Source of the DNA: Opitutia bacterium Tous-C1TDCM
GTDB lineage: Bacteria > Verrucomicrobiota > Verrucomicrobiia > Opitutales > Opitutaceae
Length of the DNA: 39,816 nucleotides
Reading direction: 5' to 3'
Assembly: GCA_002288455.1 (NCBI GenBank)
Contig: NEUS01000023.1
Coordinates: forward strand, 1 to 39,816
A model generated the notes under the pieces. It was not told the origin of the DNA, made no database searches, and saw nothing but the letters and a program-made list of their open reading frames with translations. Positions 2,452-19,818 of this stretch are shown one piece after another (the first letter of the stretch is position 1; each line of letters begins with the position of its first letter). Position numbers and translations under genes: made by a program.

Positions 2452-3717
2452 CTAGACGTTCGCGGGGCGAGGACGGAGTTGCCAGGCGAGGAGCCAGGCG
2501 AGCGGGTGCAGGAGGAGCATGAAGCCGAAGGCGGGATCGTAGGACGTGTTGGTCACGAGGGAACCGACGGCTTTGTTCATCATCAGGCCGCCGAGGGAAC
2601 TGCCGGCGGCGATCACCCCGAAGGCAAAGGCCAGCGAGCCGCGCGGCACGAGGTCGACGACGAGAGCGCTGAGATTGATCAGCCATGCGAGGTGCGCGAG
2701 CACGGCGACCATGCCAAAGGCTAGGACGAGCCAGAGCGCGTCCGCATGCGGGATCACCGCGCCGAGCGGCACGAGCAACGCGCACGCGAGCATGATCCAC
2801 AGGCGGCTGCGCACGGGGGCGGTGCCGCGCTTGATCAACAGGCCGGAAAGCCAGCCGCCGGCGAGCACGCCGATGTCGGCGGCGAGGTACACGACCCACG
2901 TGACGCTCAGGGATTTCTGATCGAGGCCGCGCGAGTCGTAGAGATACTTGGCGAACCAGAACTGGAAAAAATACCAGACGGGATCGGTCAACATGCGGGC
3001 GAAAATCAGCAGCAGGACCTCGCGCCGCAGGAGGACGCGGTACCATTTGCCCCAGTCGGGCGCGGCGGCGGGATTGGCGGCAAGTTCCGCGGCCTGCCCG
3101 GACTCGATCAGCGTGCGTTCTTCCGCGGTCAGGCGGGGATGTTCGCCGGGGCGGCGGTAGAGCCAGAGCCACGGAATGAGCCAGACGAGGCCGGCGGACC
3201 CGGTCACGATGAAGGCGGCCTGCCAACTGTGCCACGAGGCGAGGCCGACGATGAGAACGGGCGCGAGCGTCGCGCCGACCGTAGCGCCCAGCGTGTAGAT
3301 ACCGATGGCCAGTCCGCGTTCGCGGGCGGGGAACCATTCGGAGACGGCTTTGGGCGCGGCGGTCCAGTTGCCCGCTTCACCGAGCCCGAGCAGGAACCGG
3401 CAGACGCCGAGGGAAACGGCCGAACGGGCGAAGCCCGTGAGGATATTGGCGATGGACCACCAGCCGACGAACAGCGCCAGACCGAAGCGGACCCCGAAGC
3501 GGTCGACGATTTTGCCCGAGAGAATGAGCGCGACGGTATAGGCGACCAGAAAGGCGTTGAGGACCGAAGCGTAGTCTTCGTTGGAGAGACCAAGCTCCTG
3601 CTGGATGGTGGGCGCCAGAATGGAAAGCGCCTGCCGGTCCACGTAGTTCAGGACGGAGGCGAAGAAGATCAGCGCGACGATCCACCAGCGGAGATGCGGG
3701 ATACGGGTCATGGCCAT
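2452..3717 (-). CDS. MFS permease, ExuT/hexuronate-like (ACS family)
   Basis: 421 aa with about 12 hydrophobic segments. The N-terminal helix carries NYVDRQALSILAP, and the loop after helix 2 carries the MFS signature GKIVDRFGVR. GLGEAGNWTAAPKAVSEWFP near residue 115 is typical of the anion:cation symporter branch, which includes the hexuronate transporter ExuT. It would bring acidic sugars such as glucuronate or galacturonate across the inner membrane. A second in-frame ATG lies two codons downstream (3711). The gene starts 15 bp after the stop of the 954-aa secreted protein and is followed 30 bp later by the FAD oxidoreductase, so it is probably cotranscribed with both. The substrate is inferred from family and context only. 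Confidence 0.87.
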   Translation of the reverse strand: MAMTRIPHLRWWIVALIFFASVLNYVDRQALSILAPTIQQELGLSNEDYASVLNAFLVAYTVALILSGKIVDRFGVRFGLALFVGWWSIANILTGFARSAVSLGVCRFLLGLGEAGNWTAAPKAVSEWFPARERGLAIGIYTLGATVGATLAPVLIVGLASWHSWQAAFIVTGSAGLVWLIPWLWLYRRPGEHPRLTAEERTLIESGQAAELAANPAAAPDWGKWYRVLLRREVLLLIFARMLTDPVWYFFQFWFAKYLYDSRGLDQKSLSVTWVVYLAADIGVLAGGWLSGLLIKRGTAPVRSRLWIMLACALLVPLGAVIPHADALWLVLAFGMVAVLAHLAWLINLSALVVDLVPRGSLAFAFGVIAAGSSLGGLMMNKAVGSLVTNTSYDPAFGFMLLLHPLAWLLAWQLRPRPANV

Positions 3718-3732
3718 CGGACGATGCGGACC

Positions 3733-6597
3733 TCAACGCTGCAGCGCGGCAGGACCGGAGGATTGCTTTTCACCGGAGAGCGTTACGCCCAGCACTTCGA
3801 AATCGAAACTCGCGGCGCCGATCGGCACGGGAACGGTGAATTCAAACGGGTAGCTCGCGTCGGTGACGGTCGCCTTGCGATCGCCGACGGCGTAGCTGAG
3901 CGTGACCTCCTTGAATTTCGAGTCGTCCGCCTGAAGGTAAACGTAGGCGGTGGTCGCAGCGGGTCCGAAATTGAGGATCATGGCCTGCGTGCCGCCGAAC
4001 GGCAGTTCGACGCGGTCGCGACGCCACGCATCGGCGGCACGGGCGCCGACGAGGCGGTCCTGGAATTTCGGCGTGACGGCGAGGCCCTCGACTTCGACGG
4101 CGGTGAGCCCCATCGGCGGCACCGTAACGGTGAGGCGGCCGTCGCGCAGCGCCGTGGCGGAGCCGTCGCGGAAGACCCGCGTGCGGTAGGTTTGGCCGGC
4201 GAGTTGCGGGAGGACCGCGGCGCTGAGCACGATCTCGGCGGAAACCGGCTCGGGGGATTGGTTGGTGAACGCGAAGTAGAGGCGGTCGCGGCCGCGGGCG
4301 ACGAGGGTGTTGATTTCGACGGAGCTGCTCTTGAGCAACCGACGGGGCATCCACAGCACGGCATCGTCCCGGTCGAAGAATTTGCCGGGGCGGTCGCCGT
4401 AGAATTTGCTCTGCAGATACGCGTAGCCCTCGATGAAGTGCGCGGGGAAATCGATCTTGCCGCCGGACCGCGCGAACGCATCCGTCACGAGGAAATCGAG
4501 GAGGATGCTCATATGCGGCCAGATATGGTTGTAGTGAAACGAATTCACGCTGAGCGCCTTGTGATCGCGCAGCGGATAGTCGGCCCGCTCGTAGATCGTG
4601 GTGCGCGCGGTGTTGATGTGGTAACCCGGGAAATTGCGATAGCGGCCGACGACGGCGGAGCGGGCGACATCGTGGAGCAGTTTGTCGCCGGTAATTGCGG
4701 CGAGGCGGAGCATCCACGGCGCGTAGTTGGCCATGAAGATGGCGCGGTGTCCCGACATCGTGCCCGAAGATTCCGGCGTGAGGCCGATCTCGGAGAGCCG
4801 CCAGGCGGGAACCGTTTCCTCCGGGGCCTGCATCGGAGCGTGGCCTTTGCTCTTCAGATACCAATACACCGGGGCCTGGCCGCCGGGATTCACGGTCACA
4901 GCGGTGTCGGGGATGCGCGGAGCCATCCACGTGAACATCGTGTACTGGCGGGCGCCCTGACGGGCCGCCGCCAGGTAGCGCGGCTCACCCGTCGCCTCGT
5001 AGAGACGGAAGAGGTCGATCCACTTTGGAGTGAAGCCGATCCAGAAAAACATGCCGCCGTCGTCGAAGCCGGTGGCGGCCCGGTCGACGCGCTGCGCCAA
5101 ATAGGCATCGGCGCCGCGGCGGGCGGAGGCGAGCAACCGGGCGTCGCCGGTGACCAGAAAAACACCCAGCTGGTTTTGCCAACTGCCGCCCTCGGCAATG
5201 TCGTCCAGATTGAGAATGCGGTTCCGCCCGAGCATCTGTTCGGCCATTTGACGCAAGACCGGCGAGGCGCCGTGGGTGATGCCGTAGAGCGTGGCGAGTT
5301 CGCTGACCGGCGCGCAGGGGCCGAGCAGGGCGCGCGAAGGGCTCTGGATCTTTTGCTTCGGATCGAGCGAGAAGAGGAACTTTTCGCGCGAGAGCATGAA
5401 CTCGACGATCGGGTAGGCGCGTTTCCGGAAGATCTCCTCGTCGTCCGTGACGAGGGCGAGGTTGAGCGGATTGAGCGAGGAGACGTTCTTCACCGCGCCG
5501 GGGACGTCGGTGGAATAGGAGCAGCCCTTCAGTTCCTCGATGAACCAGCTGAAGTTGCTCATCCCGTAGTCGATCATGTTGTCGAGCGTCTCGTTGAGCG
5601 TGGCGATGGCGTTGCGGCGGTGGTCGCGGAAACCGTAGAGGCGGCGGGCGAGCGTCTCGTAGGCCGCGGTGATGTCGCCGGCGCCGGCGAACAAGCGGAG
5701 TTTGAACGTGAAAGCCTGGCCGGCGGTGCGCTTCGATTCGGCGCCTCCGAGCAGCGGGGCCAAAACCATCGGCTGGGCCTCGCCGGCCGGGTTGCGCAGC
5801 GCGACGCCGAAGCGGCTGTTGTCGAGCAGCGGCAGCGGCGAGAAAGGCAGTTCGTCGGCATCGGCCACCACGCCGAGGGTGACGTTGCCCTTGCGCACGA
5901 ATGTCGCCGGCAGCGAGCATTGGAAGGCCGCGGTAAGGTAGGAACGCTCGGGAAAGCGTTTCTCCTGCCAGATGAACGGCTGCCAGACCTCCGCGAGAAC
6001 ATCGAGGCGGTGGGCGGGAGCGCCGGTGTAGCCGACGGAGAACCAGGCGGCGCGTTTGGGTGTGAGCGTGAAGGCGAGCACGGGCTCGGCGTCGCCCGCC
6101 GGCAAGGTGAGCGTGGCGGCGAGCGTGAAGTCCGCGTGCTCGGGAAAGGCAAATCGGAGGGCGTCGCCGTCGCGCGTGACGGCCGTGGCGCGGAGGCGCG
6201 TTACCGGGGCGGCGGCGAACACATCGGCGGTGCGCTGCCGGGTGTCGCCATCGAGAATAGTGTCGTCGAAACCGTCGCCGGCCTGGGCGGCAGCGCGTTT
6301 GACGCTTTTGAGCGCGGCGCCGGCCGGCTTTGCCGGGGTCTGCCAGGTGAGGATATTGTAGGAGACGCGCGGGATGTTGCCGGGCCGCATCGCGGGCTTC
6401 GGATCGGCGGTGGCCAGGAGCACGACGAAATCGCCGCGGAAGGTCCAGGTGCCGGCATCCTTCGCGGTGAGTTGCACGGCGCCGTCGGCCGCGGGAGCGA
6501 CGGAATAGCGGTCGTTGGCCAGCGGTTGCGCGGAGACGGTGGCCAGGAGCAAGGACGCGAACAGCCAACGGAGTTTCAAAAGCAGAGGCATCGTCAT
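3733..6597 (-). CDS. Large secreted protein of unknown family (paralogue A, 954 aa), putative carbohydrate-active enzyme
   Basis: 954 aa with an N-terminal signal peptide (about residues 1-23, cleavage near VSA-QP). I do not recognise the family. It is homologous end to end to the protein at 16510-19401. Shared blocks include TDVPGAVKNVS (about 363-373), RILNL (460-464), APRIPD (559-564), GYHINTARTT (658-667), HYNHIWPH (688-695) and GDRPGK (734-739). The N-terminal ~300 residues look beta-rich. The centre looks helical, with repeated L-Y/A patterns like an (alpha/alpha)-barrel. The last ~200 residues look like beta-sandwich domains. The invariant His, Asp and Glu residues suggest an enzyme. 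The start is set by an ATGA overlap with the upstream GH43 stop, so the longer in-frame extension upstream is not used. The MFS gene follows after 15 bp. Confidence 0.85.
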   Translation of the reverse strand: MTMPLLLKLRWLFASLLLATVSAQPLANDRYSVAPAADGAVQLTAKDAGTWTFRGDFVVLLATADPKPAMRPGNIPRVSYNILTWQTPAKPAGAALKSVKRAAAQAGDGFDDTILDGDTRQRTADVFAAAPVTRLRATAVTRDGDALRFAFPEHADFTLAATLTLPAGDAEPVLAFTLTPKRAAWFSVGYTGAPAHRLDVLAEVWQPFIWQEKRFPERSYLTAAFQCSLPATFVRKGNVTLGVVADADELPFSPLPLLDNSRFGVALRNPAGEAQPMVLAPLLGGAESKRTAGQAFTFKLRLFAGAGDITAAYETLARRLYGFRDHRRNAIATLNETLDNMIDYGMSNFSWFIEELKGCSYSTDVPGAVKNVSSLNPLNLALVTDDEEIFRKRAYPIVEFMLSREKFLFSLDPKQKIQSPSRALLGPCAPVSELATLYGITHGASPVLRQMAEQMLGRNRILNLDDIAEGGSWQNQLGVFLVTGDARLLASARRGADAYLAQRVDRAATGFDDGGMFFWIGFTPKWIDLFRLYEATGEPRYLAAARQGARQYTMFTWMAPRIPDTAVTVNPGGQAPVYWYLKSKGHAPMQAPEETVPAWRLSEIGLTPESSGTMSGHRAIFMANYAPWMLRLAAITGDKLLHDVARSAVVGRYRNFPGYHINTARTTIYERADYPLRDHKALSVNSFHYNHIWPHMSILLDFLVTDAFARSGGKIDFPAHFIEGYAYLQSKFYGDRPGKFFDRDDAVLWMPRRLLKSSSVEINTLVARGRDRLYFAFTNQSPEPVSAEIVLSAAVLPQLAGQTYRTRVFRDGSATALRDGRLTVTVPPMGLTAVEVEGLAVTPKFQDRLVGARAADAWRRDRVELPFGGTQAMILNFGPAATTAYVYLQADDSKFKEVTLSYAVGDRKATVTDASYPFEFTVPVPIGAASFDFEVLGVTLSGEKQSSGPAALQR

Positions 6598-7721
6598 GGA
6601 GAAGAGAAGACCGAGAGGTCCCATTGGTCGCGCCAACGGATGATCGCGAGATCCCCCTCGAATTCGATGGGGAGCCAGATGTAGCCGGAAGTGATCGGAT
6701 TCTGCGGCAGATTGATATCGAACATCGCGATCCACGCGTCGCGACGGCCGGCGACGGGGTAAACAAACGTGCTTTGTCCGCCGAACGTTTTCTCGGGGCC
6801 GAGCTGGTTGTGGGGATTTACGCCGCGGACGGGATTGCCGAGGTCCCGATACGGGCCGGTGACCCGGTCCGCCACGAACATGCGGGCGGCGTTGGGCGCC
6901 CAACCGGTGCTGCCGGAACCGAGGAAGTAAATCTTGTTGCCGCGCCGGAAAAGCGCGGGCGCTTCGGTCGCGGGGGTGATGCCGGCCAGTTCCACGTAGC
7001 CGCCGGCCGGACGCAAGCCGTCGTCGGACATCCGTCCGCCGACGTGGATTTTGTCCGGCTTGCGCACGCCGAGGTGGTAGATCGAGCCGTCGGTGTCCGG
7101 AAAGATGGCGAAGTCGCCGGTGCCGAACCGGCTGTTGCCGCCGAGAAAGCGACCTTGGTAGTGAAACGGTCCGGTCGGCGCCGTGGCGGTCGCCACGCCG
7201 ACGTAGGCGAAGTCGACGCCGGACTTTCCTCCCTGCGACTTGGGCGGGTAGAGTTTGAAGTAGAGGATGAACTTCTTCGTGGCGGCGTGGTAAATCACCT
7301 TGGGCCGGTCGAGAATGGCGGCGTCGGCCAGCTCGGGATGCGCACCCGGCGCGAAGACATCCAGCACCAGCCCCGCATTTTGCCAGTTGAGCAGATCGTC
7401 GCTGACATAGCAGCGGACGCCGGCCTCGTTTTTCTCGGATTCGGTTTTGCCCGGGATCTTGTGGGAACCGTACCAGTAGTGGCGGCCACCGAAATCAAGG
7501 ATGCAGAAACCGTGGGCGTTGAGGTGGGTGCCCTGCGTGTCGGGCCAGGGCTGTCCCGGCCGGAAGTGGGTGTTGCGCGGCGGCGGGTTTTCGGCGCCAA
7601 AACCGATGCCGCCGATCGCCAGGGCCGCGGCGACGGCACCCCGCCGGATCAGGGACCTGATGAATCGGCGGCAGGCCCAACCGAGGCCGGCGTCGGAAAA
7701 GTAAGCACAGGGAAGTGGCAT
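6594..7721 (-). CDS. Glycoside hydrolase family 43, exo-beta-1,3-galactanase-like
   Basis: 375 aa. The N-terminus has a basic stretch and a hydrophobic segment (about residues 27-42, ending GFGA-EN), which suggests export. The core resembles the GH43 five-bladed propeller of the exo-beta-1,3-galactanase branch: HLNAHGFCILDFGGRHYWYG (66-85), DRPKVIYH (138-145), TGDFAIFPDTDG (201-212), TEAPALFRRGNKIYF (252-266) and a C-terminal YIWLPIEF. Glu253 sits where the family general acid is expected. At the usual catalytic-base site in the first blade the sequence is NAHGF and not the classical Asp, a known trait of that branch. The enzyme would release galactose from the non-reducing end of galactan, but specificity is inferred. 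Its stop overlaps the next start as ATGA, which implies translational coupling. Confidence 0.8.
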   Translation of the reverse strand: MPLPCAYFSDAGLGWACRRFIRSLIRRGAVAAALAIGGIGFGAENPPPRNTHFRPGQPWPDTQGTHLNAHGFCILDFGGRHYWYGSHKIPGKTESEKNEAGVRCYVSDDLLNWQNAGLVLDVFAPGAHPELADAAILDRPKVIYHAATKKFILYFKLYPPKSQGGKSGVDFAYVGVATATAPTGPFHYQGRFLGGNSRFGTGDFAIFPDTDGSIYHLGVRKPDKIHVGGRMSDDGLRPAGGYVELAGITPATEAPALFRRGNKIYFLGSGSTGWAPNAARMFVADRVTGPYRDLGNPVRGVNPHNQLGPEKTFGGQSTFVYPVAGRRDAWIAMFDINLPQNPITSGYIWLPIEFEGDLAIIRWRDQWDLSVFSSP

Positions 7722-7751
7722 GATCTTCGGGGCAGCACGACGGCCAACCGA

Positions 7752-7976
7752 CTAAACTCGGAAGCACTGGCCCGCGGCCAATGGCAACGGGCGGCCCCCG
7801 GGAGAGCAGGCGGCCCTGGTCATCGGTTCCTCGTCGAAGCGGTGGTTCACGTTCAGCGACAGATCGAGCCGCGTGCCCTTCCGCCATTTTTCGAACGGGC
7901 AACCGACCACCGCGGTCCCATGAGGTTGGCAGCGATGCGGATGCCGGGGGCGCGTGCCGCCGCGACGAAGCAATCG
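7752..7976 (-). pseudogene. Possible frameshifted gene remnant
   Basis: One minus frame reads a plausible protein segment including FVAAARAPGIRIAANLMGPR (about 7970-7911) and then becomes implausible. The adjacent frame then takes over with CPFEKWRKGTRLDLSLNVN and HRFDEEPMTRAACSP, ending at a TAG at 7754-7752. Switching frames near 7912 gives one continuous protein-like sequence, which suggests a single-base frameshift in the 3' end of a lost gene. I cannot assign a family. Its place inside the sugar locus suggests a former carbohydrate enzyme. In high-GC DNA such frames can also arise by chance. Confidence 0.3.
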
Positions 7977-8223
7977 TGCTCGGCGGGGTTGGTGCGAAAC
8001 GCCCGAGACACGCCGCCCCCTTCCGATGCAGGTGTCGCCGCGCTTTGGGCGGGCCCGACGGTGGCGGGCAAGCCGGCCCCGAGAAACAGTGGCTTCCCAA
8101 CGGGGACAAGGGGGTGCATGGGTGGGCTGTTGCGGGAGGCGGTGTCGGGGCCGGGGACGGACGGTCGGACCAAGAGCGGAGGCAAATCGTTTTCCCCGGT
8201 GGAAGCGGACGCGATTGCCGGGG

Positions 8224-8242
8224 CTTTGAAACCCTTCAATTC
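8224..8242. promoter_or_regulatory. 19-bp motif with inverted-repeat core, copy 1 (candidate operator)
   Basis: The sequence ctttgaaacccttcaattc is identical to the copy at 19740-19758. Its core is TTGAA-N4-TTCAA, a 5-bp inverted repeat. It lies 29 bp beyond the stop of the Gfo/Idh/MocA gene and about 500 bp upstream of the GH43 start. The other copy lies next to the LacI-type regulator gene, so an operator shared within the locus is plausible. The centre lacks the CG pair common in LacI-family operators, and a dispersed repeat remains possible. Confidence 0.4.
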
Positions 8243-8270
8243 TGCCGCGGCCACCGCAGGGGCGCGCCGA

Positions 8271-9683
8271 CTACACTCCCCAGCCGGCGCGGTAGCCGTA
8301 GCCGGGACCGACGAGGACATCGCAATCCGGGCGATTGGGGAAACGGCCGGCGGCGGCGTCCCACTCGAGACGGGCTTGGGCGCGTTGCGCGGCGACGCCG
8401 AGCAAAACGACCTCCGTGAGGCCGGCGGCGTAGTCGAAATCGGAGCCGCACTTGGGGCCGCCGCGGATGGCGGCCGTCCATTCGGTGAACGGTCCGCCTG
8501 CGACCCGCGGGATGGATTTCGGCGGCAACGCGCCCGCCATCGCCTGCATGCGCTCTTCGGGCAGGAGCCGGCACGAGCCGCTGTGGGAAGTGACGCTCAT
8601 GATGCCCTTCGTTCCGTAGAAAAGGCTGCCGCCGCTCTCGGAGAGTTTGAATCCGGGGACGGGCAACGGCGGTTTCATCGTGCCGTCGAACCACTTCATT
8701 TCCACGGGACCGCGCCCGCCGCGCGCCGGGAATTTCCACGTCACCGCGGTCGAGGCCGGGAAGGTTTTCGCATATTGCTTCGTGGTGGCGCCCTCCACGC
8801 TCGACGGCGATCCGAGATCGAGCGCGTAGAAAGGCGCGTCGAGTTGGTGGCACCCCATGTCGCCGAGGGAGCCGGTGCCGTAGTCGGTGAATCCGCGCCA
8901 AAAAGAAGGCACCAACTCCGGGCGGTAGGGACGCGGCGGCGCTATCCCGAGCCAGAGATCCCAGTCGAGCGTCGCGGGCACGGGCGTTTCCTTGGCATTG
9001 GCGTCGGGATCGAAATCGGCCGGATAAAACCACGGCGCTCGCGGCCGGTCCGTCCACGTGTGCACGGTGTGGACCTCGCCGATCAGGCCGGCCTGCACCC
9101 ACTCGCGGGCGAGGCGGATGCCTTCGGCGGCGCGGCCTTGGTTGCCCATCTGGGTCACGACGCCGGCGGCTTTCGCGGCAGCGTGCAGGCGCCGCACCTC
9201 GGTGAGGCACCGGCACATGGGCTTCTCGACATAGACGTGCTTCTTCGCGGCGATCGCGGCCATCGCGATCGGGAAGTGCATGTGGTCCGGAGTCGCGATC
9301 GCGACCGCGTCGATTTTGTCCGCCATCTGCTCGAACATCACGCGGAAGTCCTTGAACCATTTCGCTTCCTTCAGCCGCTCCGGGTCCGGGCCCGCCTTTT
9401 TCCCGCCGGCGAGTCCGGCGCGGCTACGTTTCTCGTCCACATCGCACAGGGCGACGAATTGTTCGGCGGCGAGGCCCGCGAGCGCGGCACCGCCGCGGCC
9501 GCCCACGCCGACTTGGGCGATGCGCAGACGCTCGTTGGGCGAACGCGTGCCTTGGCCGCGGAGGCCGTGCGGCAAAATCAGGACGGAGCCGAAGGCGCCG
9601 GCCGTCGCCAAAAACCGGCGACGGGTCGAAGGAGACTGCGGAGACGATGGCGAAGAGGAAGACGGGGGCAGGTTGAGGCTCAT
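8271..9683 (-). CDS. Gfo/Idh/MocA family oxidoreductase with Tat signal
   Basis: 470 aa. After a Ser/Pro-rich leader a twin-arginine motif TRRRFLATAGAF (20-31) and a hydrophobic stretch point to Tat export. The NAD(P)-binding motif VGVGGRGG lies at 58-65, followed by the acid CDVDE after the second strand. TPDHMHFPIA (131-140) and VYVEKPMC (150-157), with the conserved EKP lysine, follow, then the GFO_IDH_MocA C-terminal domain. Tat-exported members are common in Verrucomicrobia and Planctomycetes. Some of this superfamily are NAD-dependent glycosidases (as in GH109) and others are sugar dehydrogenases, so the reaction is uncertain. The start ATG at 9683 is preceded by CCCTTCCCC; upstream in-frame codons lack protein-like character. 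It lies between the receptor/orphan ORF and GH43. Confidence 0.87.
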   Translation of the reverse strand: MSLNLPPSSSSPSSPQSPSTRRRFLATAGAFGSVLILPHGLRGQGTRSPNERLRIAQVGVGGRGGAALAGLAAEQFVALCDVDEKRSRAGLAGGKKAGPDPERLKEAKWFKDFRVMFEQMADKIDAVAIATPDHMHFPIAMAAIAAKKHVYVEKPMCRCLTEVRRLHAAAKAAGVVTQMGNQGRAAEGIRLAREWVQAGLIGEVHTVHTWTDRPRAPWFYPADFDPDANAKETPVPATLDWDLWLGIAPPRPYRPELVPSFWRGFTDYGTGSLGDMGCHQLDAPFYALDLGSPSSVEGATTKQYAKTFPASTAVTWKFPARGGRGPVEMKWFDGTMKPPLPVPGFKLSESGGSLFYGTKGIMSVTSHSGSCRLLPEERMQAMAGALPPKSIPRVAGGPFTEWTAAIRGGPKCGSDFDYAAGLTEVVLLGVAAQRAQARLEWDAAAGRFPNRPDCDVLVGPGYGYRAGWGV

Positions 9684-9747
9684 GGGGAAGGGCAAACAAT
9701 TTTCGCTGCGGCTACGGTGCGGCGCGAGTTGAAAGCATCCTCGGCCT

Positions 9748-10209
9748 TCAGCGACGGGTCGCCACCGTCGAAGGCCGGTCTGCAACGTATCCGACGTCGA
9801 AATGCACCTGGGCGCCACGGTTGGCCGGGGCGGCGAACCACCGGCATCCTCGCAAACGGGCGGCGCATTCATGCCAGTCAAGATCGACGTTGTTCCAGCC
9901 CGCGCCGCCGGCGGGTCGCCAAGGCCGGCCGGGATTCGTGCCGACGCAGCGAAAGCGCGCGAGATGCCGCCCTTGCTCCGGCAAGGCCAAGACCACGCCG
10001 CGATCGGACGCGGGCACGGTGCCTATGATATCCAAGGCACCGTCCGTCACGGCGATCGCAACGCCTCGCGCGGCCTGTTGGGCCGGATCAAACGCGCGTG
10101 CGAAATCGAACAATTCTGCCGCGCCGGCTACCGCAGGCGCGGCCAGCAAGATGCCGGCGCGAAGCAGACGTTGAAGCGATCCGCGGTATGCGCGCAGGGG
10201 TTGCATCAT
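9748..10209 (-). CDS. Short secreted orphan protein, possibly a truncated gene
   Basis: 153 aa from tandem ATGs at 10209 and 10206. The signal peptide is clear: a basic start, then LLRAGILLAAPAVAGAAE, with cleavage near AGA-AE. The mature part begins ELFDFARAFDP and alternates hydrophobic and polar residues in a beta-rich pattern, with two Cys and several Trp. I do not recognise it. It may be the N-terminal accessory domain of a larger polysaccharide-degrading enzyme whose catalytic part was lost: the frame ends at 9748, 64 bp before the oxidoreductase start, and codon use is coding-like up to that point. It follows the TonB-dependent receptor gene after 68 bp and is probably cotranscribed with it. 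A genuine small binding protein is the alternative. Confidence 0.5.
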   Translation of the reverse strand: MMQPLRAYRGSLQRLLRAGILLAAPAVAGAAELFDFARAFDPAQQAARGVAIAVTDGALDIIGTVPASDRGVVLALPEQGRHLARFRCVGTNPGRPWRPAGGAGWNNVDLDWHECAARLRGCRWFAAPANRGAQVHFDVGYVADRPSTVATRR

Positions 10210-10277
10210 GATTCCGTTGCGAGGGCTGAAGCGGAGGAACGCGCTGGGCTTGATAACGTGCAATCCCGGGACCGGCG

Positions 10278-13200
10278 TCAGAAACTGCCCTTCACGCCGA
10301 TGACGATGTAGGAAGGAGTGACGTAGCGTTGGTAGGCTTGGGCAAAGGCCGGGGTATTCGGCGCCCGGCGATACACGAGGCGATCCTTGGCGAACACGTC
10401 GTCCCAGTTCAGGTAGAGGGCGAGCTTCTTGCTCAACGCGTATTCCGCGCTGATCCCGTAGCGGGTATAGGCGGCTTGGTATTCATAAGTGGACTGCGGG
10501 ATGAATCCTTCGGTGGAGGTCCCGGGAACGACCACCACTTCCGCCCGCTTCGTTTCGGCCTGATAGGCCGCCGTCAGCCGGACGGAGAAGCGCGGCCGGA
10601 TGTAGTTCAACCCCGCCGTCAGGGAATCGGGACTGAAACCCACGAAATCCGCCGCATTGCGTCCCCCCACCTTCAGATGCGTGTAGTTCACCCAAGCCTG
10701 CACGAGTTGCAGCCATGACGGCAAAAAGCGCAGATCCTGGCGGTAGCTCAGCTCGACACCGTCCAGCGTCGCATCGCCGACATTTTCCCAGCGGCGCAGG
10801 ACGTAGTTGTCGGCCAACATATATTCGATGTCTCCCTCCGGGATGCCGTAGGCCTCGAGCGCTGCCGCCGTGGTCGGCTGCCCGCGCTGCGCGAAGAAGT
10901 TGCTGACCTGCTTGCGATAGACCCCGACGGAGCCGAATCCGCCTTTCAGATGATAGGAGTCGAGGGACAGGTGGAAACTGTCCGCCGTCCAGGGCGCCAA
11001 GCCGGGATTGCCGACCACGATGGTGCGAGCGGTGGTCGCATTGGTGTCGGTGGGTACCGGCACCGTGATCCCGGCCACGACATATTGCACATCCGGGCGG
11101 CCGATCGTCCGGGCGTAGGCCGCCCGCGCCACGAGGTTCTCGGTCAACGCGTAATTGGCGTTCAGGCTGGGATAGAACCCGTCGTAGTTCTGGCTCTCGA
11201 AATTTCCCCGTTCCTGGTTGATGAGCCTGAGCCGCGCCTCGGCGTTGTTGGTGACGGGGATCAACGCGCCGCTGCTGTTGCGCAGCAGGTTGCCCGCCGC
11301 ATCGCGCTGGTAGATGGCAAAATTGTCCCGCTTCATGCTCCACCCCTTGAGATCCGTCTTCTCATAGCGGGCGCCGCCGATGAGGTTCAACCGGCCGGCC
11401 AGCAGGCGCAGATCGAACCGGAAATAGCCGGCCAGGATATCCTCGAGCATCCGCTTGGAATTCTGCGCGCGGTTCTGGATATGGGTGGTGTTCAGGGTGA
11501 AATACTCCGGGTTTTGCACGAAGAGGTTGTAGGTTTTCACCGGGCTGATCCACCGCACCGGATTCCCGTTCATCTTCACGTCGATCGACTCATCCACGAG
11601 GTCGTAGAGCGAGACGGCCGTCTGGCCGGCGGCCCGGCCGACAAAGGTGTAGTTCTTGACCGGACGGGTGTCGTCCTTGTCGAGGCGGTTGTAACTGCTC
11701 CCGATCTTGAGCGTGAGGTTCCGGCCGATCGCGCGGCTGACGTTCAGGCGCCCGGCCGTGAGGTCCGTCTGATACAGGGCATACTCCTCGTTCGCCGTGC
11801 CGAGCGTGTAGTTGTTGGCATTGTAGGGATCCAGCAGCGTGCCGTTGGTGCGGGTGATCCTATAGGTTTCCGGCCCGATGCTCGACCCCTTCCCGATGCC
11901 GTCGCCGCGGATGTTGACGTTGGCCGCGTTGGCGAGGACGCCGTTGAAGTAGCCCTTGCCGACGCTGCTGCGCTCGCGGTCGGCGGCGGAGCGGGAGGCC
12001 TGCGCGTCGATGTTCCACACCGGGCCGCGATGCTGATACTTCAACGAAAACATTCTCGTATCGGTGGTCGCATCGTAGTTCGACGGATTGAGGGTGCCCA
12101 TTTCGAAGCGCCCGGTGGTGCCGCGGCTTTCCGTATAGTCCGCGTTGCCGATCGCATCGTAGTTGGCGTTGATGCGGGAGGTGAAAAAACTCATGGCCTT
12201 TTTGTCGAGCACGGCCCGTTGCTGAACCTGCAGGCTGAGCGTGTCGTTTTTCGACAGTTTCCAATCGACGCCCAACTGGAGGTTTTCGGTCCTGGAGATC
12301 GAGGCCTCCTGGCGCCATTGCGTGATCGCGAGCGCGAAATCCTTCGGGGCGCCGGTCGCAAAGTAGGTGTCCCGCAAATTCCAGAAAGCGACTTCCGAAG
12401 GCGTGTCGTCCGTCGGCCGCTGGCGCCAGGAGCGGGACGCGCCCAAACTGACCGCGAGGCTCTTCCCCACCGGAAAGGCGTAGCTCAGGCTGAACGAGGG
12501 CACCTTGCGACCCGGCGACGCCCGGTCGTGGGGCTGCCGCGAACCACCGTCGATACCCAAGCCGTCCACGTTGTTGAAATTCATATAGACCTGATAGCGG
12601 CCGACCGGGCGCTTCAGGCCCGCTCCGGTCTTCGCGATCAGGTTCATCGAACCGCCCAAGCCCGAGGCTGGCAGGTCGGGCGTGGGCACCTTCGAGACCT
12701 CCACGCGCTCGATATTCAGGATCGGCACGTCCTGCAGCGCCGCGGCGCGACTGCTGGTCGCGCCAATGCCCGTGGCCGCGACGTCCACGCCGTCGATCTG
12801 GATGTTGGACATTTCCGCCGGAAATCCGCCCAAGGCGATCCGGCCGGGATTTTCCCCGTCGTCCAAAATGGAGACGCCCGGCAGAAAGCGCACATAGTCG
12901 CCGACGTTTTCCTGGCCGCGGTCCCCGAGTTCATCGAACGAGACCACGTTCTTGATGTTGGCCGCATGGCGTTGTTCGTTCATCGCGACGGCCTGGCCGC
13001 TCATCGTCTGTTCCGCGACCACCTGGAACGCATCCAGCATGATCGTCCGGTCGTCCGCGCCGCGCCGGTCGGTTCTTTCGCGACCGAGCAGGAAATCCTG
13101 CGCCACCTGTCCGCCGGGCGGCACCGTCACCCGGGAGATTTGCGACACGAAACCCAGATACGAAACTTCCAACTCGATCGCCTTGGCCGGAGCGCCCCGG

Positions 13201-13454
13201 AGATAAAACCTGCCGTCATCGTCGGTCAGCGTCTCTTGGGCCGTGCCGCGGATGGCCACCTTGGCCCGGCCGAGCGGGGAACCGCTCGCCGCGTTGGACA
13301 CCGTGCCTTGGACCGAGCCCATGGGCTCGCCCGAGGATTGGGCCTGAACGCCCAGCACAAAAGCGAGCGACATCAGCAGACACGGAACAGCACGTCGGAA
13401 GGCAATACGCCCTCCATTTCGCCAGGAGGAAGTGAGGGACATTTTGGAGTTCAT
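10278..13454 (-). CDS. TonB-dependent receptor with carboxypeptidase-D-like N-terminal domain
   Basis: 1058 aa outer-membrane receptor. A signal peptide ends near GVQA-QS (about 38). A CarboxypepD_reg-like domain runs from about 47 to 130 (GSVQGTVSNAASGSPLGRA, then DDDGRFYLRGAP). An LDAFQVVAEQ linker follows (about 140-149), then the plug (VGDYVRFLPGVSILDDG, then IQIDGVDVA and IERVEVSKVPTPDLPASG). The remaining ~750 residues form the 22-strand barrel ending in GVKGSF with the terminal aromatic. The architecture is SusC-like, but no SusD partner is encoded nearby. Placed directly after the GH106 gene (47-bp gap), it probably imports oligosaccharides released by the locus enzymes. The start ATG has no Shine-Dalgarno; an alternative ATG lies four codons downstream. 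Confidence 0.93.
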   Translation of the reverse strand: MNSKMSLTSSWRNGGRIAFRRAVPCLLMSLAFVLGVQAQSSGEPMGSVQGTVSNAASGSPLGRAKVAIRGTAQETLTDDDGRFYLRGAPAKAIELEVSYLGFVSQISRVTVPPGGQVAQDFLLGRERTDRRGADDRTIMLDAFQVVAEQTMSGQAVAMNEQRHAANIKNVVSFDELGDRGQENVGDYVRFLPGVSILDDGENPGRIALGGFPAEMSNIQIDGVDVAATGIGATSSRAAALQDVPILNIERVEVSKVPTPDLPASGLGGSMNLIAKTGAGLKRPVGRYQVYMNFNNVDGLGIDGGSRQPHDRASPGRKVPSFSLSYAFPVGKSLAVSLGASRSWRQRPTDDTPSEVAFWNLRDTYFATGAPKDFALAITQWRQEASISRTENLQLGVDWKLSKNDTLSLQVQQRAVLDKKAMSFFTSRINANYDAIGNADYTESRGTTGRFEMGTLNPSNYDATTDTRMFSLKYQHRGPVWNIDAQASRSAADRERSSVGKGYFNGVLANAANVNIRGDGIGKGSSIGPETYRITRTNGTLLDPYNANNYTLGTANEEYALYQTDLTAGRLNVSRAIGRNLTLKIGSSYNRLDKDDTRPVKNYTFVGRAAGQTAVSLYDLVDESIDVKMNGNPVRWISPVKTYNLFVQNPEYFTLNTTHIQNRAQNSKRMLEDILAGYFRFDLRLLAGRLNLIGGARYEKTDLKGWSMKRDNFAIYQRDAAGNLLRNSSGALIPVTNNAEARLRLINQERGNFESQNYDGFYPSLNANYALTENLVARAAYARTIGRPDVQYVVAGITVPVPTDTNATTARTIVVGNPGLAPWTADSFHLSLDSYHLKGGFGSVGVYRKQVSNFFAQRGQPTTAAALEAYGIPEGDIEYMLADNYVLRRWENVGDATLDGVELSYRQDLRFLPSWLQLVQAWVNYTHLKVGGRNAADFVGFSPDSLTAGLNYIRPRFSVRLTAAYQAETKRAEVVVVPGTSTEGFIPQSTYEYQAAYTRYGISAEYALSKKLALYLNWDDVFAKDRLVYRRAPNTPAFAQAYQRYVTPSYIVIGVKGSF

Positions 13455-13501
13455 CGGGTTTGGCTAGAGGGATTGAGGGGACGAAAGGGTGGTGGCTTGG
13501 G

Positions 13502-16500
13502 CTACGGCGCCGGCGCGCGCCAATCGATTTTGACGGGGCCCAGCAAACCGGAGGGGACGAGCGGGGATTTTGCCTCGTAGTGTTTCCAAGTGGTGAAGCT
13601 GTGGCGCTTCCGCTCGGAGAGGCGCGTGCGGTCGTAAAGCCAGGCGGGGAGTTGCTTGAGCCTTCCGTCGGTAAACTTGTTCGTGCCCTCGGGCTGGTAG
13701 GCGAGATCGGTCGGCAGCGACTCGTCGCCAATCACGCGGTTGATCCAGCGGTTGGCCACGCGGACCTCGAGGAGGTTGTCGCCGGCGCGCAGGTGGCGCG
13801 TGACCTCGGCGCGAAACGGCGGTTGCCAGAGCGTGCCGATGAGCGCGCCGTTGAGCCGGACCTCGGCGAGATCGGCGACCGTGCCAAGGTCGAGGGTGGC
13901 GGTGGCACCGGCGCGGAGTGGGGCCGTGAAGCTCGTGCGGTAGGTGGCGGTGCCGGAGTAGAATTGGATGCCGGGGTTTTCATTTTCCGTCCACGAGGCG
14001 AGGGTCGCGAAGGTGGCGTCGGGCGGTGCGCCGCGGCCGTCGTGAAACGCGACCTGCCACGGACCGGCAATCGGCACAGTCGCGGCAACCGCGGTCCGCG
14101 GCACGCCGGCGCCCGGCCCGGCCGCGGCGCGGCGGAAAACGACGAAGATCGAACCGCGTGGCTCGAGTTGGAGCGGCACGGTGGTGCCGGTGGCGCCCGG
14201 GCGAAACGCGGAGGCGTCGGCACGGGCGCCGGTGACCGCGTTCCAGAGCTCGGGCTGGCGGCCGGTGACGCGGAAGGTGAAGTCGCCGGCGACGTCGCGG
14301 TCCGAGTGGTTGAAGACGAAATAGATTTCGGCTTCGGGCGTGCGGCGGTGAATATAGCGGAGTTCGCCTCCCGCCGGCGCGGCCGGCAGCGCCACGTCGG
14401 CCGCGAGATCGATTTCCTTGAGCGCGGCGGACAAGGCAGTCCGGAGGATGAGCGGGCGGGGCCCATCCCACAACTCGCGCACGAGCGCGGCGAATTCGCC
14501 GCGCGCTTCGTAAGCGCGCACCCCCGCGGGAGCCACGGGCGCGGCGCCGAAGATCGGGGCGCCGGCGCGCGCGAAATCGCGGAGGCGGCGCAGTGTCGCG
14601 AGATCCGCGGTCCAGTTCGTCGGCAACATAAGGACGCGGTAGGCGGGCCCGGTCGGCAGCGTGAGCGCGCCCTCGCGCCACGTCATCGCGGCGAGGTGGT
14701 GCGGATAGACGATGTCGAAATCGTAGCCGGCCGGCGTGGTCACCATGCCGGCGGGGAAGGCATAGCCGTGATCCTCGTTGTGAAGAAACGCGATGTCGGC
14801 GACGGTGCGGCCTTGTTGCAGGAGAAATTGCCCGCGCGCCACGTAGTCGATCCAGGCGCCGGCGAGAGGCCACCAGGTGTTGAGGCGGCCGAAGTGCGTG
14901 CCGTAGCGGCCGAGGCCGAAGCCGGGGCCGTCGTCGGTGGGCTGGTGCACGTAGTGGTGCAAAATGAAGCGGTTGATGCCGGCGGTCCACGCGTAGTCGC
15001 CGGGATCCTTCAGCGTGGCGGGGGTCGCGAGCCAGCGGCCGTCTTCGGGCTTGGCGGTAAACGCCTCGGCGCCGACGAGCGGGCGGCCAAGGACGTTGGC
15101 GACGGACGCGACGAGCTTGATCCGCGCCAGGCGCGGCGAGGTGTCGGGCATCCAAAATTCGTTCATCGGCACATCGACATACTCGTTCGCCGAAACCGGA
15201 TTCAGCGGCCCGCCTTGCGCCTCGGCGTAGAGCACGAGGCCGTGCTCGCGGGCGCGGCGTTGCATCGTGCCGAAATAGTTCTTCGCGATGAGTTCCTCGA
15301 CCGCGCCGCGGAAATCGCGGAGCGCGGCTTCGGTGAACGACGGGCTCTCCACCACGCGGCCCGTGAGCACGGGCAGCAGCGGCACGAAGTCGTAGCCCTT
15401 GAGGGCGCGGAACTGCGCGGGGAAGGTGTCGGTCCAGTTTTGCGGACCGCCCTCGAAGCTGTCGAAAAGCAGTCCCTTGAGCGTGCGACCCACGCGCGGG
15501 CCGGCCTCGCGCAGGATGCGGCCGAGCGCCTGGTCGAAGTAGAACGAGACGGCGTCGGCGTCCATTTTGTCGATCTCGAGACCGTGTCCCTCGGGCACGG
15601 CGGGATGGTTCGTCGAACTCGTCGAGGTGAAACCGAAACGCAGGATCGTCCACTCGCCGGCGGGGAGCGTGGCGCGCAACGTGCCGCTGGCGGCATCGAA
15701 ACCGGCCGTGAGGTCGATCACCCGGGCGCGGGGAATGCAGCCCGAGGTATCCGGGTCGAAGGGCGCGGCGGCGAGAGTCTTCTCCTTGAGCTTGGTCTTG
15801 AATTCCCAATCGGGAGTGCGGCGGGTGGATTCGGCCGGAACCGCCAGCACGACGATATCGCGGAAAAAGTTCTCCAGCTTCTTCGCGGGCGGGGTGCGGA
15901 ATTTCAGCGGCTCGATCTTCGGCCGCGGCACGGCGAGCGTGAGCGCACGACCGCCGGTCGCCGGGGTTTCGCTCCACACCAGTTTCTTCATCGAGCGCTC
16001 GGGCGTCACCCACGGACCGCCGCTGGCGGACCAACCGGGCGTGTTCATGAGGTGGAACTCGAGGCCGAGTTTGTCCGCCGTGGCGATCGCGTGCTGCACG
16101 TGCTCATGCCACTGGTCGGTGCCGTAGCGGACGGGACCGGGCGGCAGATAGATGCTCGCGTCGAACATCTGCACGCCCGCGATCCCGACGCGCTTCATAT
16201 CCGCAAGATCGGCCTCGATGCCGGGCTTGCTCACGTTGCCATTGATCCAATGCCACCACACGAGCGGGCGGGCGACCGGCGGCGGGGCGGCGAAACCGGC
16301 GGCGAGACCGTCGGCACCGGAGGCGCGCGCGACGAGCATAAGCATGAACAGCACCAGGGCGGGGCGACGGAGCGGGCGCATGCGGGCGGGTTCGCGGTCC
16401 CGGAAGACCAAGGCAACCGGCGCGGTGGATTGCGCCGGCGCCAACTGGGCCGTGGCCGCCACGCCAAGCAAAGCGCACCAGGCACGGACGCGGGGAGCGA

Positions 16501-16513
16501 AACGCGTTTTCAT
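13502..16513 (-). CDS. Alpha-L-rhamnosidase-type glycoside hydrolase (GH106)
   Basis: 1003 aa. The start of the mature domain, PLVWWHWINGNVSKPGIEAD with DLADMKRVGIAGVQMFD, is characteristic of GH106 (PF17132), as are MNTPGWSASGGPWVTPE, KGLLFDSFEGGPQNWTD, AEAQGGPLNPV and INRFILHHYVHQP. A C-terminal beta-sandwich with YRTSFTAP and EVRLNGALIGTLW resembles the sugar-binding domain of GH2-like enzymes. The enzyme would remove terminal alpha-L-rhamnose from pectin or arabinogalactan side chains in the periplasm. The N-terminus is odd: a first signal-like segment (residues 1-28) is followed by a second Met and complete signal peptide at residue 45 (ATG at 16381). The upstream ATG forms an ATGA overlap with the preceding gene. 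Either start may be used. Confidence 0.85.
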   Translation of the reverse strand: MKTRFAPRVRAWCALLGVAATAQLAPAQSTAPVALVFRDREPARMRPLRRPALVLFMLMLVARASGADGLAAGFAAPPPVARPLVWWHWINGNVSKPGIEADLADMKRVGIAGVQMFDASIYLPPGPVRYGTDQWHEHVQHAIATADKLGLEFHLMNTPGWSASGGPWVTPERSMKKLVWSETPATGGRALTLAVPRPKIEPLKFRTPPAKKLENFFRDIVVLAVPAESTRRTPDWEFKTKLKEKTLAAAPFDPDTSGCIPRARVIDLTAGFDAASGTLRATLPAGEWTILRFGFTSTSSTNHPAVPEGHGLEIDKMDADAVSFYFDQALGRILREAGPRVGRTLKGLLFDSFEGGPQNWTDTFPAQFRALKGYDFVPLLPVLTGRVVESPSFTEAALRDFRGAVEELIAKNYFGTMQRRAREHGLVLYAEAQGGPLNPVSANEYVDVPMNEFWMPDTSPRLARIKLVASVANVLGRPLVGAEAFTAKPEDGRWLATPATLKDPGDYAWTAGINRFILHHYVHQPTDDGPGFGLGRYGTHFGRLNTWWPLAGAWIDYVARGQFLLQQGRTVADIAFLHNEDHGYAFPAGMVTTPAGYDFDIVYPHHLAAMTWREGALTLPTGPAYRVLMLPTNWTADLATLRRLRDFARAGAPIFGAAPVAPAGVRAYEARGEFAALVRELWDGPRPLILRTALSAALKEIDLAADVALPAAPAGGELRYIHRRTPEAEIYFVFNHSDRDVAGDFTFRVTGRQPELWNAVTGARADASAFRPGATGTTVPLQLEPRGSIFVVFRRAAAGPGAGVPRTAVAATVPIAGPWQVAFHDGRGAPPDATFATLASWTENENPGIQFYSGTATYRTSFTAPLRAGATATLDLGTVADLAEVRLNGALIGTLWQPPFRAEVTRHLRAGDNLLEVRVANRWINRVIGDESLPTDLAYQPEGTNKFTDGRLKQLPAWLYDRTRLSERKRHSFTTWKHYEAKSPLVPSGLLGPVKIDWRAPAP

Positions 16514-19401
16514 TTCAGGAGCAGGCGCCCAACCGGGGATTTTTCCGCGGGCCCCGCGCCCGACTGCACCTCAAACCAAAATTCCAAAGGGGTGTCGCCG
16601 GCGACAGGCAGCGTGAAATCGTAGGGATACGAAATGTCCGTCATCGCGCGGTATTCTCCCCCACCCTGCCGATAATGGACCGTGCAGCGGGTCACGGTGC
16701 GCTCCTGGTCGGGCAGGTAAACGTACGCGCTCGTCAGTTCGCCCGCGCCGAACGACAGCACGACGCCGCGCGCGCCGCGCCAGCCGAGGTCGACGACACT
16801 TTCCGCCGGAAGGCGCGCGGCGCGGCTGAGAATCTGGTCCTGAAACTCCACGCGCGGCGCGACGCCGCTGACGATCACCGTCGTGATGCCCGCGGCGGCG
16901 ACGTCCACGGCGATGCGGGCATCGGCCGGCAGCGGCATCTCGCGGACGCGCCGGTTGTTTTCCCAAACGGTCACTTTCGCGTTGGCCCCCGGGGCCAGCG
17001 CAATGCGTTCACGCGAGAGCGTCACGTGGGATTTCACCGCTGACTTCGACTGGTTGGTGAGGGCGATAGCCACCTTGGCGTCGCCGCGGGCCATCACGAA
17101 ATTGAGTTCGGGGTGGTCGACGGTCAGCACGTCGCGCGGCATCCACAGATACAGGCCGCTTTCGTCGTGGACCTTGCCGGGGCGATCGCCGAACACGCGT
17201 TGCTGCAGGTAACCGTAGCCTTCGGCGTAGCGGGACGGAAAATCGATCGCCCCGCGCGATTTTGCGAAGGCGTCCGCCACGAGATAGTCGAGCAGCAGCG
17301 CGATGTGCGGCCAGATGTGATTGTAGTGAATCGAAGTCGTCGAGTTGAGTTCGTCCTTCCCGCGCCGGGCGAAGTCGGGTTTCTCGTAGGCGGTCGTGCG
17401 CGCGGTGTTGATATGGTAACCGGGAAAACTGGTGTAGCGGCCGATGATCGCGGAGCGGGCGATGTCGTGGAGAAACGCGTCGTTTTTATGGGCGGCGATC
17501 CGCAGCATCCACGGCGCGTAGCAGGCGAGGAAAATGCCGCGCGCGCCCTTGCTGGTAGGGGCCGACTCGCTGGTGAGGCCGATCTCGGAGGTGCGCCAGG
17601 CGGACACGGTTTCGGGCTCCGCCTTGATCCGGGGGAAACGCGGTCCGGAGCGGTAGGCCGGCGCCAGGCCGTCTTCGTTGACACGCACGTCGCCGTCGGG
17701 GATGCGCGGCGCCAGCCAGACGAACTGCGCATAGTCGCGGGCGCCGGCATGGGCGGCGTCGAGGAAGCGCGGCAGCTTGGTTTCCTCGTAGAGCTCGAAC
17801 AACTCGATCCACTGCGGCGTGAACGCCGTCCAAAAAAACAACCCGCGGGAATCGGGGTCCGAATAGTCCGCCGCCCGCACTCCGACGCGGGTTTTGAGAT
17901 AGGCATCGGCATCCTTGATGGCGTGGTCGAGCCAGCGCTTTTCGCCGGTCGCACGGTAAAGGCCCAGGGCATTGGACCAGTTGTCGCCGCGAATATTGCC
18001 CTGGAGATTCAGAATACGGTCCCGGCCGAATAGGCTCTCGGCGGCAGTGCGGAAAAACGGGGTACGCTTGCCCGACATCGCGTAGAGATTCGCGTATTCG
18101 GTGAGCGGTGCGCCCAGGCCCCTCAGGTGCGAAGAGGCCGACTGCCCCTTTACCTTCGGATCGGTCGTGAAGAGGAAGCGCTCGCGGGAAACGAAAAACT
18201 CCATCAGCGGGCGGGCGAGCCGGGTGTAGATTTCCGGGCGGTCGGTCACGAGGGCGAGGCCGAGCGGGTGCAGGGCGGAAACGTTTTTCACCGCGCCGGG
18301 TACATCGGTATCGTAGGCGAAACCGCGCAGGTCGGCGTTGAATTTCGCGTAGTCGCTCAGGCCGAACTCGAGCATGCGCTCGAAGGTGGCGTTGAGCGAA
18401 CCCAGGGCGTTGTGGCGCACATCGGCGAAGCCGTAGAGCGACCGGGCGACGCGTTCGTAGGTGGCGGAGAGGCTCGCTTTGGCGACGACGACCCGCATGA
18501 CGAACTCACGCGTCTCGCCGGCCTTCATGCGCGAGCCGGCGCCGCCGAGCAGCGGCGCGAACAGCATGGGTTGCGCGAGGCCACGGGCATTGCGCAGGGC
18601 CACGCCGAAGCGCGAGTTGGCGAAATTCGGCAGCGGTTGAAACGGATACTCCGCGGGGTCGGCGAGCACGCCGGTGGTGACGCCGCCATGCGTGACGAGC
18701 GTGGTCGGCAGCGGGCAACGATACGCGGCCTCGAGAAACGACTCATGCGGAAAGCGGCGTTCGTTGTAAATCAAGGGCTGCCAAAGTTCCTCGACCGCGG
18801 TCGCTGGGGTCTCGGGTGCGCCGAGGTAGCCGAACGAATACCAGCCGTCCGCCTTTACCGTCGCCGTCAGCCGCAGACGCGGCGCGGTGCCGTCGGGCGG
18901 CAAATCCAACTCCGCCCGCACGGCGGCCGTATCGTCGGAGGGAAAATCCCAGACGATTTTGCGCCCGTCGGAGCGGCCGGCTTCGGCGCGCAGGGTCTTC
19001 AGGGTGCCGGCGGCGAAGAGATTGGCGGTGCGCCCGCCGCCATAGCCACGATCAACGGTGGGATCGAAGCCGTCCTCGACGTGCTGGACCGCGGTCTTCG
19101 CGGCGCCGGTTTTCCGGCCCCACGTCAGCACATTGTAGATCGAGCCGGTGTCGTTCAGCTGCATCGCGGCTTCCGGAAACCGGCCCCAGCGCATTTCCAG
19201 ATTCGGATCGGAGCGCGCGGACAAGACCGCGACAACCGGGGCAAACCGGGCGACGGCGCCGTCGGCCATCGCGACTTCGATTTCGCCCGAAGGCGTGACG
19301 GCGAGCCGCGCGGCGGGCCCGACCAGAGGCGGCTCGGCGGCAACGGCGCAAAGGGCGCCGACAAGCATCAGGCACGGGTAAGAGAAAAGCCGGGGTTTCA
19401 T
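16510..19401 (-). CDS. Large secreted protein of unknown family (paralogue B, 963 aa), putative carbohydrate-active enzyme
   Basis: 963 aa with a signal peptide (about 1-22, cleavage near VAA-EP). It is a full-length homologue of the 954-aa protein at 3733-6597, with many identical blocks: YDTDVPGAVKNVSALHP (363-379), RILNLQGN (462-469), WLAPRIPDGD (562-571), GYHINTARTT (661-670), IHYNHIWPHI (691-700) and FGDRPGK (737-743). Predicted layout by eye: a beta-rich N-terminus to about 300, a helical barrel-like centre from about 310 to 760, and C-terminal beta domains. I do not recognise a named family. Location between a GH95 remnant and GH106, with ATGA overlaps on both sides, argues for an enzyme acting on the same glycan; a glucuronidase or another exo-acting role is one testable idea. 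TTCCCC abuts the ATG. Confidence 0.86.
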   Translation of the reverse strand: MKPRLFSYPCLMLVGALCAVAAEPPLVGPAARLAVTPSGEIEVAMADGAVARFAPVVAVLSARSDPNLEMRWGRFPEAAMQLNDTGSIYNVLTWGRKTGAAKTAVQHVEDGFDPTVDRGYGGGRTANLFAAGTLKTLRAEAGRSDGRKIVWDFPSDDTAAVRAELDLPPDGTAPRLRLTATVKADGWYSFGYLGAPETPATAVEELWQPLIYNERRFPHESFLEAAYRCPLPTTLVTHGGVTTGVLADPAEYPFQPLPNFANSRFGVALRNARGLAQPMLFAPLLGGAGSRMKAGETREFVMRVVVAKASLSATYERVARSLYGFADVRHNALGSLNATFERMLEFGLSDYAKFNADLRGFAYDTDVPGAVKNVSALHPLGLALVTDRPEIYTRLARPLMEFFVSRERFLFTTDPKVKGQSASSHLRGLGAPLTEYANLYAMSGKRTPFFRTAAESLFGRDRILNLQGNIRGDNWSNALGLYRATGEKRWLDHAIKDADAYLKTRVGVRAADYSDPDSRGLFFWTAFTPQWIELFELYEETKLPRFLDAAHAGARDYAQFVWLAPRIPDGDVRVNEDGLAPAYRSGPRFPRIKAEPETVSAWRTSEIGLTSESAPTSKGARGIFLACYAPWMLRIAAHKNDAFLHDIARSAIIGRYTSFPGYHINTARTTAYEKPDFARRGKDELNSTTSIHYNHIWPHIALLLDYLVADAFAKSRGAIDFPSRYAEGYGYLQQRVFGDRPGKVHDESGLYLWMPRDVLTVDHPELNFVMARGDAKVAIALTNQSKSAVKSHVTLSRERIALAPGANAKVTVWENNRRVREMPLPADARIAVDVAAAGITTVIVSGVAPRVEFQDQILSRAARLPAESVVDLGWRGARGVVLSFGAGELTSAYVYLPDQERTVTRCTVHYRQGGGEYRAMTDISYPYDFTLPVAGDTPLEFWFEVQSGAGPAEKSPVGRLLLK

Positions 19402-19758: not shown

Positions 19759-19818
19759 GAGGGATTGCATTCATGGCAGCCTGCGACTGACGTCGCCCGT
19801 GCCCATGTTTCCGCCGTC

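Follow-up and report, generated by a model that had tools for sequence, protein, structure and literature searches.

The 39,816-nucleotide window analyzed here (contig NEUS01000023.1 of Opitutia bacterium Tous-C1TDCM, positions 1 to 39,816) carries two long genes of one family within a single glycan locus, and raises the question of what their products are and what they do. Protein A (954 residues, 3733..6597) and protein B (963 residues, 16510..19401) are both encoded on the minus strand; a reading of these coordinates on the forward strand was rejected, since the real open reading frames lie on the other strand. BLASTP aligns the two proteins over nearly their whole length with 427 of 961 positions identical (44%, E 0.0), and the blocks TDVPGAVKNVS, GYHINTARTT, HYNHIWPH, and GDRPGK, all four pointed out in an earlier sequence-only reading of this DNA, are found in both, in agreement with its description of two full-length paralogues. 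These are the only two copies found in the assembled genome, which is 86% complete. The N-termini of both proteins are hydrophobic and signal-like as judged by eye, consistent with the secretion proposed earlier, and signal- or lipoprotein-like N-termini occur in the family.

In its own direction the operon reads B, GH95 remnant-GH106, TonB receptor, Gfo/Idh/MocA oxidoreductase, GH43, A, MFS transporter, and FAD-dependent oxidoreductase, all on the minus strand, with a LacI-type regulator (19765..20883, plus strand) divergent from it. The GH106 alpha-L-rhamnosidase frame (13502..16513; PF17132, 624 bits) is followed by the TonB-dependent receptor (10278..13454), the Gfo/Idh/MocA protein (8271..9872), which has a Tat-like start by eye and matches the glycoside 3-dehydrogenase model NF058561 at 335 bits, short of its cut-off of 750, and a GH43-like glycosidase (6594..7721; PF04616, 45.5 bits). 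Beyond A lie the MFS transporter (2452..3717), for which the best NCBIfam model is the D-galactonate, that is sugar-acid, transporter TIGR00893 (238 bits, cut-off 395), and the FAD-dependent oxidoreductase (142..2421; PF12831, 323 bits). The Gfo/Idh/MocA protein may represent an oxidative glycoside step within this operon. The translational coupling of A and B to glycan-enzyme genes that had been claimed for the locus is borne out by two four-base ATGA overlaps, one between the GH43 frame and A (6594-6597) and one between B and the frame that follows it (16510-16513).

The latter frame begins with what had been read as a GH95 remnant, and comparison with relatives confirms this identification. 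Its first 44 codons (16382..16513, minus strand), which overlap the stop of B and are in frame with GH106, correspond to the 5' end of a GH95 gene that occupies this position in six relatives, with identities over the 44 residues of 68% (L070), 66% (L049), 61% (L069), 57% (L053), 52% (L077), and 45% (L066), and are thus the beginning of a gene otherwise lost here. Nearly the whole GH95 gene is present in L069, L070, and L077; L049 has two overlapping pieces, L053 only a 133-residue piece, and in L066 the end of the contig truncates the gene. The L070 copy contains the Pfam GH95 catalytic domain (524 bits).

Searches of sequence libraries leave the A/B family unnamed, as had been anticipated. 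Neither protein has a match in Pfam or NCBIfam (E<=10) or in PADLOC (E<=1), PHROGs gives chance-level matches only (E>=0.14), and among PDB sequences there is none for A and only chance matches for B (E>=0.21). A plasmid search for annotated homologues returned no match, and in the literature consulted, part of it on PL27 or on neighboring enzymes, no description of the family was recognized. Profiles built from the family, when compared with PDB sequences, give short, weak matches, mostly to six-hairpin proteins. The family is unnamed in the libraries searched, CAZy and dbCAN lying outside these, and falls inside the known six-hairpin superfamily.

Structure prediction and a fold search, which had been proposed for the central helical region, bear directly on this placement. 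For the alignment, 127 candidates were reduced to 86 by an 88% identity cut, and 83 were aligned after one sequence with an unknown residue and two of 1,238 and 1,268 residues were left out. The AlphaFold2 model of A computed from these 83 sequences has a mean pLDDT of 93.0 and a pTM of 0.93, and the helical domain modeled alone has a pLDDT of 93.7. As read from its DSSP string, which is the source of the domain limits and fold names, the model consists of an N-terminal beta-sandwich (residues ~25-308, 5674..6525), a linker helix followed by a six-hairpin (alpha/alpha)6 toroid (residues ~309-715, 4453..5673), and C-terminal beta-domains (residues 716-954, 3736..4452), all on the minus strand. 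The corresponding helical domain of B, aligned with A residues 309-760, is encoded at 17110..18471 on the same strand. The DSSP strings describe about twelve main helices arranged as six hairpins, in which short turns alternate with long loops. By virtue of this predicted toroid the A/B family belongs to the six-hairpin (alpha/alpha)6 superfamily, and the earlier suggestion of a new carbohydrate-active family is supported at the level of the fold.

Kinship to individual superfamily members is weak but consistent in the sequence profiles. The best profile match in the PDB is to GH76 (8.9e-07), followed by 6ex6 (1.7e-05), with GH127 and YteR also present, and a Pfam scan of the 83 helical domains at E<=0.01 finds GH127 in 29, GH88 in 4, and a C5-epimerase and a pectic lyase in 1 each, with none for A. 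The matches to GH76 mannanases, YteR, and GH88-type hydrolases extend over one or two helical hairpins, roughly 70-100 columns, and even with a best E of 8.9e-07 represent a generic superfamily signal. The likeness to GH127 beta-L-arabinofuranosidases (PF07944) comprises the six-hairpin toroid and the weak match in 29 members, whereas A and B themselves have no PF07944 match (E<=10). GH127 enzymes use a cysteine nucleophile together with zinc bound by Cys and Glu. Membership in GH127 was rejected because the helical domain of the A/B family contains no conserved cysteine column, the maximum being 25 of 83. No protein named as PL26 (exo-rhamnogalacturonan lyase) appears in the profile matches or among the 50 listed of 91 fold matches (E<=0.001), which bears on PL26 membership only if those libraries contain PL26 entries.

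A Foldseek search of the PDB with the model of A gives 91 matches at E<=0.001, 50 of which were considered. Within these 50 of 91 a GH97 is first by E-value (2.4e-07) and the PL27 enzyme BACCELL_00875 is fourth and ninth, while by query-normalized TM-score PL27 (5no8_A) is first with 0.30 (target TM 0.40, probability 1.00, 804 columns, rmsd 13 Å) and GH97, GH15, GH94, and GH127 have query TM of 0.12-0.24. PL27 enzymes (BACCELL_00875, PDB 5no8/5nok; BT0263) resemble the model of A in the order of a beta-sandwich followed by an (alpha/alpha)6 toroid, though at the low TM-scores and large rmsd just given, and differ from the A/B family, which has extra C-terminal beta-domains and lacks an association with GH88-type genes. 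PL27 acts on complex glycans, according to PMC8377490. Membership of A and B in PL27 was rejected because 5no8 and 5nok are absent from the matches of five family profiles to PDB sequences at E<=10. A PL27-like reaction could still operate in a separate family: as an L-rhamnose-alpha-1,4-D-glucuronate lyase does, the proteins would neutralize a uronide carboxylate with arginine, abstract the C5 proton with histidine or tyrosine, and free rhamnose or another cap. The PL27 likeness, together with conserved arginines, histidine, and tyrosine (R327, R404, R652, Y659, and H691 in the numbering of A, all conserved in the core of the family), suggests such a lyase, and we regard it as the foremost rival to a hydrolase, with a probability of perhaps a third. 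Against it count the lower position of PL27 by E-value, behind a GH97, the large rmsd, and the absence of PL27 from the five profile searches.

The helical domain searched alone gives generic (alpha/alpha)6 matches, all with TM <0.5 among the 50 listed, which include lanthipeptide synthetases, epimerases, PL2, GH47, and PL27. The highest TM values among these listed matches belong to cellobiose 2-epimerase, D-mannose isomerase, and GlcNAc 2-epimerase-type proteins (target TM <=0.48), and would accord with an isomerase or epimerase acting on sugars or oligosaccharides through an N-acylglucosamine 2-epimerase fold. TM-scores below 0.5 with an rmsd of ~9-11 Å and E of ~1e-3 to 1e-2 are, however, generic for (alpha/alpha)6 toroids, and while epimerases of the N-acylglucosamine 2-epimerase kind are single-domain proteins, the toroid of the A/B family has beta-domains on both sides; isomerization is accordingly given very little weight.

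Conservation of residues speaks to whether there is any catalysis at all. Ten residues (R327, D364, E399, R404, W599, E609, R652, Y659, N690, and H691), all in the toroid, show no variation among the 54 core sequences. Among all 83 sequences H691 is kept in 83, W599 and R652 in 82 each, D701 in 81, E609 in 77, R327 and R404 in 76 each, E399 in 74, Y659 in 69, and D364 in 67. The losses fall in part within subgroups: one subgroup of 7 rows has no glutamate at the E609 column in 6 of them, and a second, also of 7 rows, has lost R327, E399, and R404 in every row, so that across the wider family no one carboxylate pair is kept throughout. A test for enrichment of conserved polar residues in the long loops of the toroid gave no significant result (p 0.12-0.74), and an attempt to demonstrate a pocket on this basis was therefore dropped. 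The earlier proposal of a new carbohydrate-active family with invariant His, Asp, and Glu thus stands in part, in that the fold, the invariant residues, and the glycan-related neighbors agree with it, whereas the enrichment of conserved polar residues in loops does not reach significance. That the invariant acids line one pocket, that the two copies act on different linkages of one glycan, and that arabinogalactan or pectin is the substrate are possibilities only. A toroid protein that binds glycans or has a structural role would also carry signal- or lipoprotein-like N-termini and would match no known catalytic family in Pfam or NCBIfam, as observed here. The retention of ten charged, polar, or aromatic residues throughout the core argues against this non-catalytic role, as does a Bacteroidales locus (L042, 6005-21413) in which the frames between an SSF transporter and a TonB/SusC receptor are a flavoenzyme and two family members only, which suggests that cleavage at this locus falls to the family members; we consider a non-catalytic role improbable. 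This locus, which has one further ORF, is a good place for a substrate search, and L080 is similar.

A contig scan found 91 relatives, of which the best 80 were kept, representing 77 loci. Among these best 80 of 91 are Verrucomicrobiota, including Opitutaceae, Bacteroidota (Pedobacter, Niabella, Chitinophaga, and Bacteroidales), Pseudomonadota (Sphingopyxis and Alteromonadaceae), Acidobacteria, Hydrogenedentes, Lentisphaerae, and Clostridia. Of 387 genomes sampled across the phylum, 18 contain the family by whole-genome search, as do 47 of 252 genomes of the host's bacterial family; it is thus widespread, though patchy in distribution. In a quick maximum-likelihood tree of the 83 helical domains, which has SH-aLRT support only and carries a long-branch warning, the clade containing A has 32 rows drawn from several phyla and the one containing B has 13, every one from the host's own phylum, Verrucomicrobiota; more distant groups lie outside both clades, with 29-32%, 21-28%, and 20-25% identity to A. 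Subject to these limits of the tree, the separate clades indicate that A and B are old paralogues, and a recent tandem duplication was rejected on the same ground. Both types occur on one contig elsewhere (L007/L076, L008/L077, L019/L049, L021/L064, L022/L065, L069, and L025), and in some Pedobacter loci, among them L035 and L036, three kinds of family member occur together. Some copies are split over several frames (L071, ~9926-12415; L081, ~10478-11767; L080, ~9953-12606), owing to decay or sequencing error.

The two types differ in their genomic neighbors, which were identified by tblastn using one representative each, some of them named by Pfam, and counted for copies followed by 4 kb or more of sequence, the duplicate locus L115 being left out. 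Homologues of the PF12831 flavoenzyme occur within 5 kb in 27 of 35 A-type loci, being absent there in 8, and in 1 of 15 B-type loci, and an MFS or SSF transporter is near in 22 of 35 and 1 of 15, respectively. The reverse holds for GH106 (1/35 versus 7/15) and GH95 (3/35 versus 7/15). Because the loci are related and were not dereplicated, these counts, including the 27 of 35, do not represent independent events. Copies fitting neither type have the flavoenzyme near in 6 of 12 cases, and the flavoenzyme copies tested in Pedobacter and Bacteroidales are PF12831 proteins too by Pfam. In several phyla the homologues have glycan enzymes and transporters nearby, other neighbors being GH97, GH3, GDSL esterase, GH43, GH31, and SusC/TonB. 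The signal-like N-termini, the fold, the conserved polar residues, and the neighbors together make a good case that the family is a carbohydrate-active enzyme of some kind, which we consider very probable.

The neighbors also bear on the choice between hydrolysis and elimination. A lyase would be in keeping with the sugar-acid type of the MFS transporter and with a Chitinophaga locus (L074) in which PL8 and GH88 lie beside a family copy. The L074 GH88 is, however, matched in the locus of only 1 of the 91 family copies compared, and no GH88-type gene (PF07470, which we take to cover GH105 as well) was found in the host genome at E<=1e-10, an absence that is not final because the genome is 86% complete. 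Across the 252 genomes, by hand tally, PF07470 is present in 28 of 47 carriers of the family and 119 of 205 non-carriers, so that co-occurrence with GH88 lends the lyase no support and there is no sign of an unsaturated product. Moreover, the lyase mechanism does not require three carboxylates invariant in the core. The invariant D364, E399, and E609, together with the missing GH88/GH105 association, instead suggest a hydrolase, and given that the family is a carbohydrate-active enzyme, hydrolysis is slightly favored.

The best explanation taken as a whole, to which we give a little under an even chance, is that A and B are members of an uncharacterized secreted six-hairpin family of exo-acting glycoside hydrolases. 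The active site would lie on the toroid, where conserved carboxylates, with D364, E399, and E609 as candidates, would provide acid/base catalysis and R327, R404, W599, R652, Y659, and H691 might bind the sugar. Protein A would free a sugar, perhaps an acidic one, which might be imported by the adjacent MFS transporter (an SSF transporter elsewhere) and then converted by the PF12831 flavoenzyme encoded alongside. For protein B, chains carrying rhamnose or fucose may be the target, attacked jointly with GH106 and GH95.

A broader and more tentative proposal, which we put forward as possible but short of likely, is that A and B are the founding pair of a new carbohydrate-active family, and that the A subfamily works with the PF12831 protein and a transporter, either of sugar acids or of the sodium-solute kind, as a module conserved across phyla, which would constitute an undescribed route. 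If so, a secreted toroid enzyme frees a sugar that is imported and then oxidized by the flavoenzyme. The PF12831 protein is a testable gene partner of the family. Should an activity be found, glycan loci that are now unreadable would gain a function; should the family already sit in CAZy, the finding would be an ordinary one.

In L112 (5171-11475, neighbors assigned by Pfam) and L113 (4885-11189, by similarity), the family gene comes after two others, one of the DUF1549/DUF1553 planctomycete-cytochrome type and one encoding DUF1501, a distinct context that could point to another function. In the window itself, nine PQQ_2/BamB-like beta-propeller frames are clustered on both strands between 21024 and 36663, an unusual array of paralogues, within which lie an MFS transporter (25240-26526) and a Y1_Tnp (IS200-like) transposase gene (34247-35227, plus strand).
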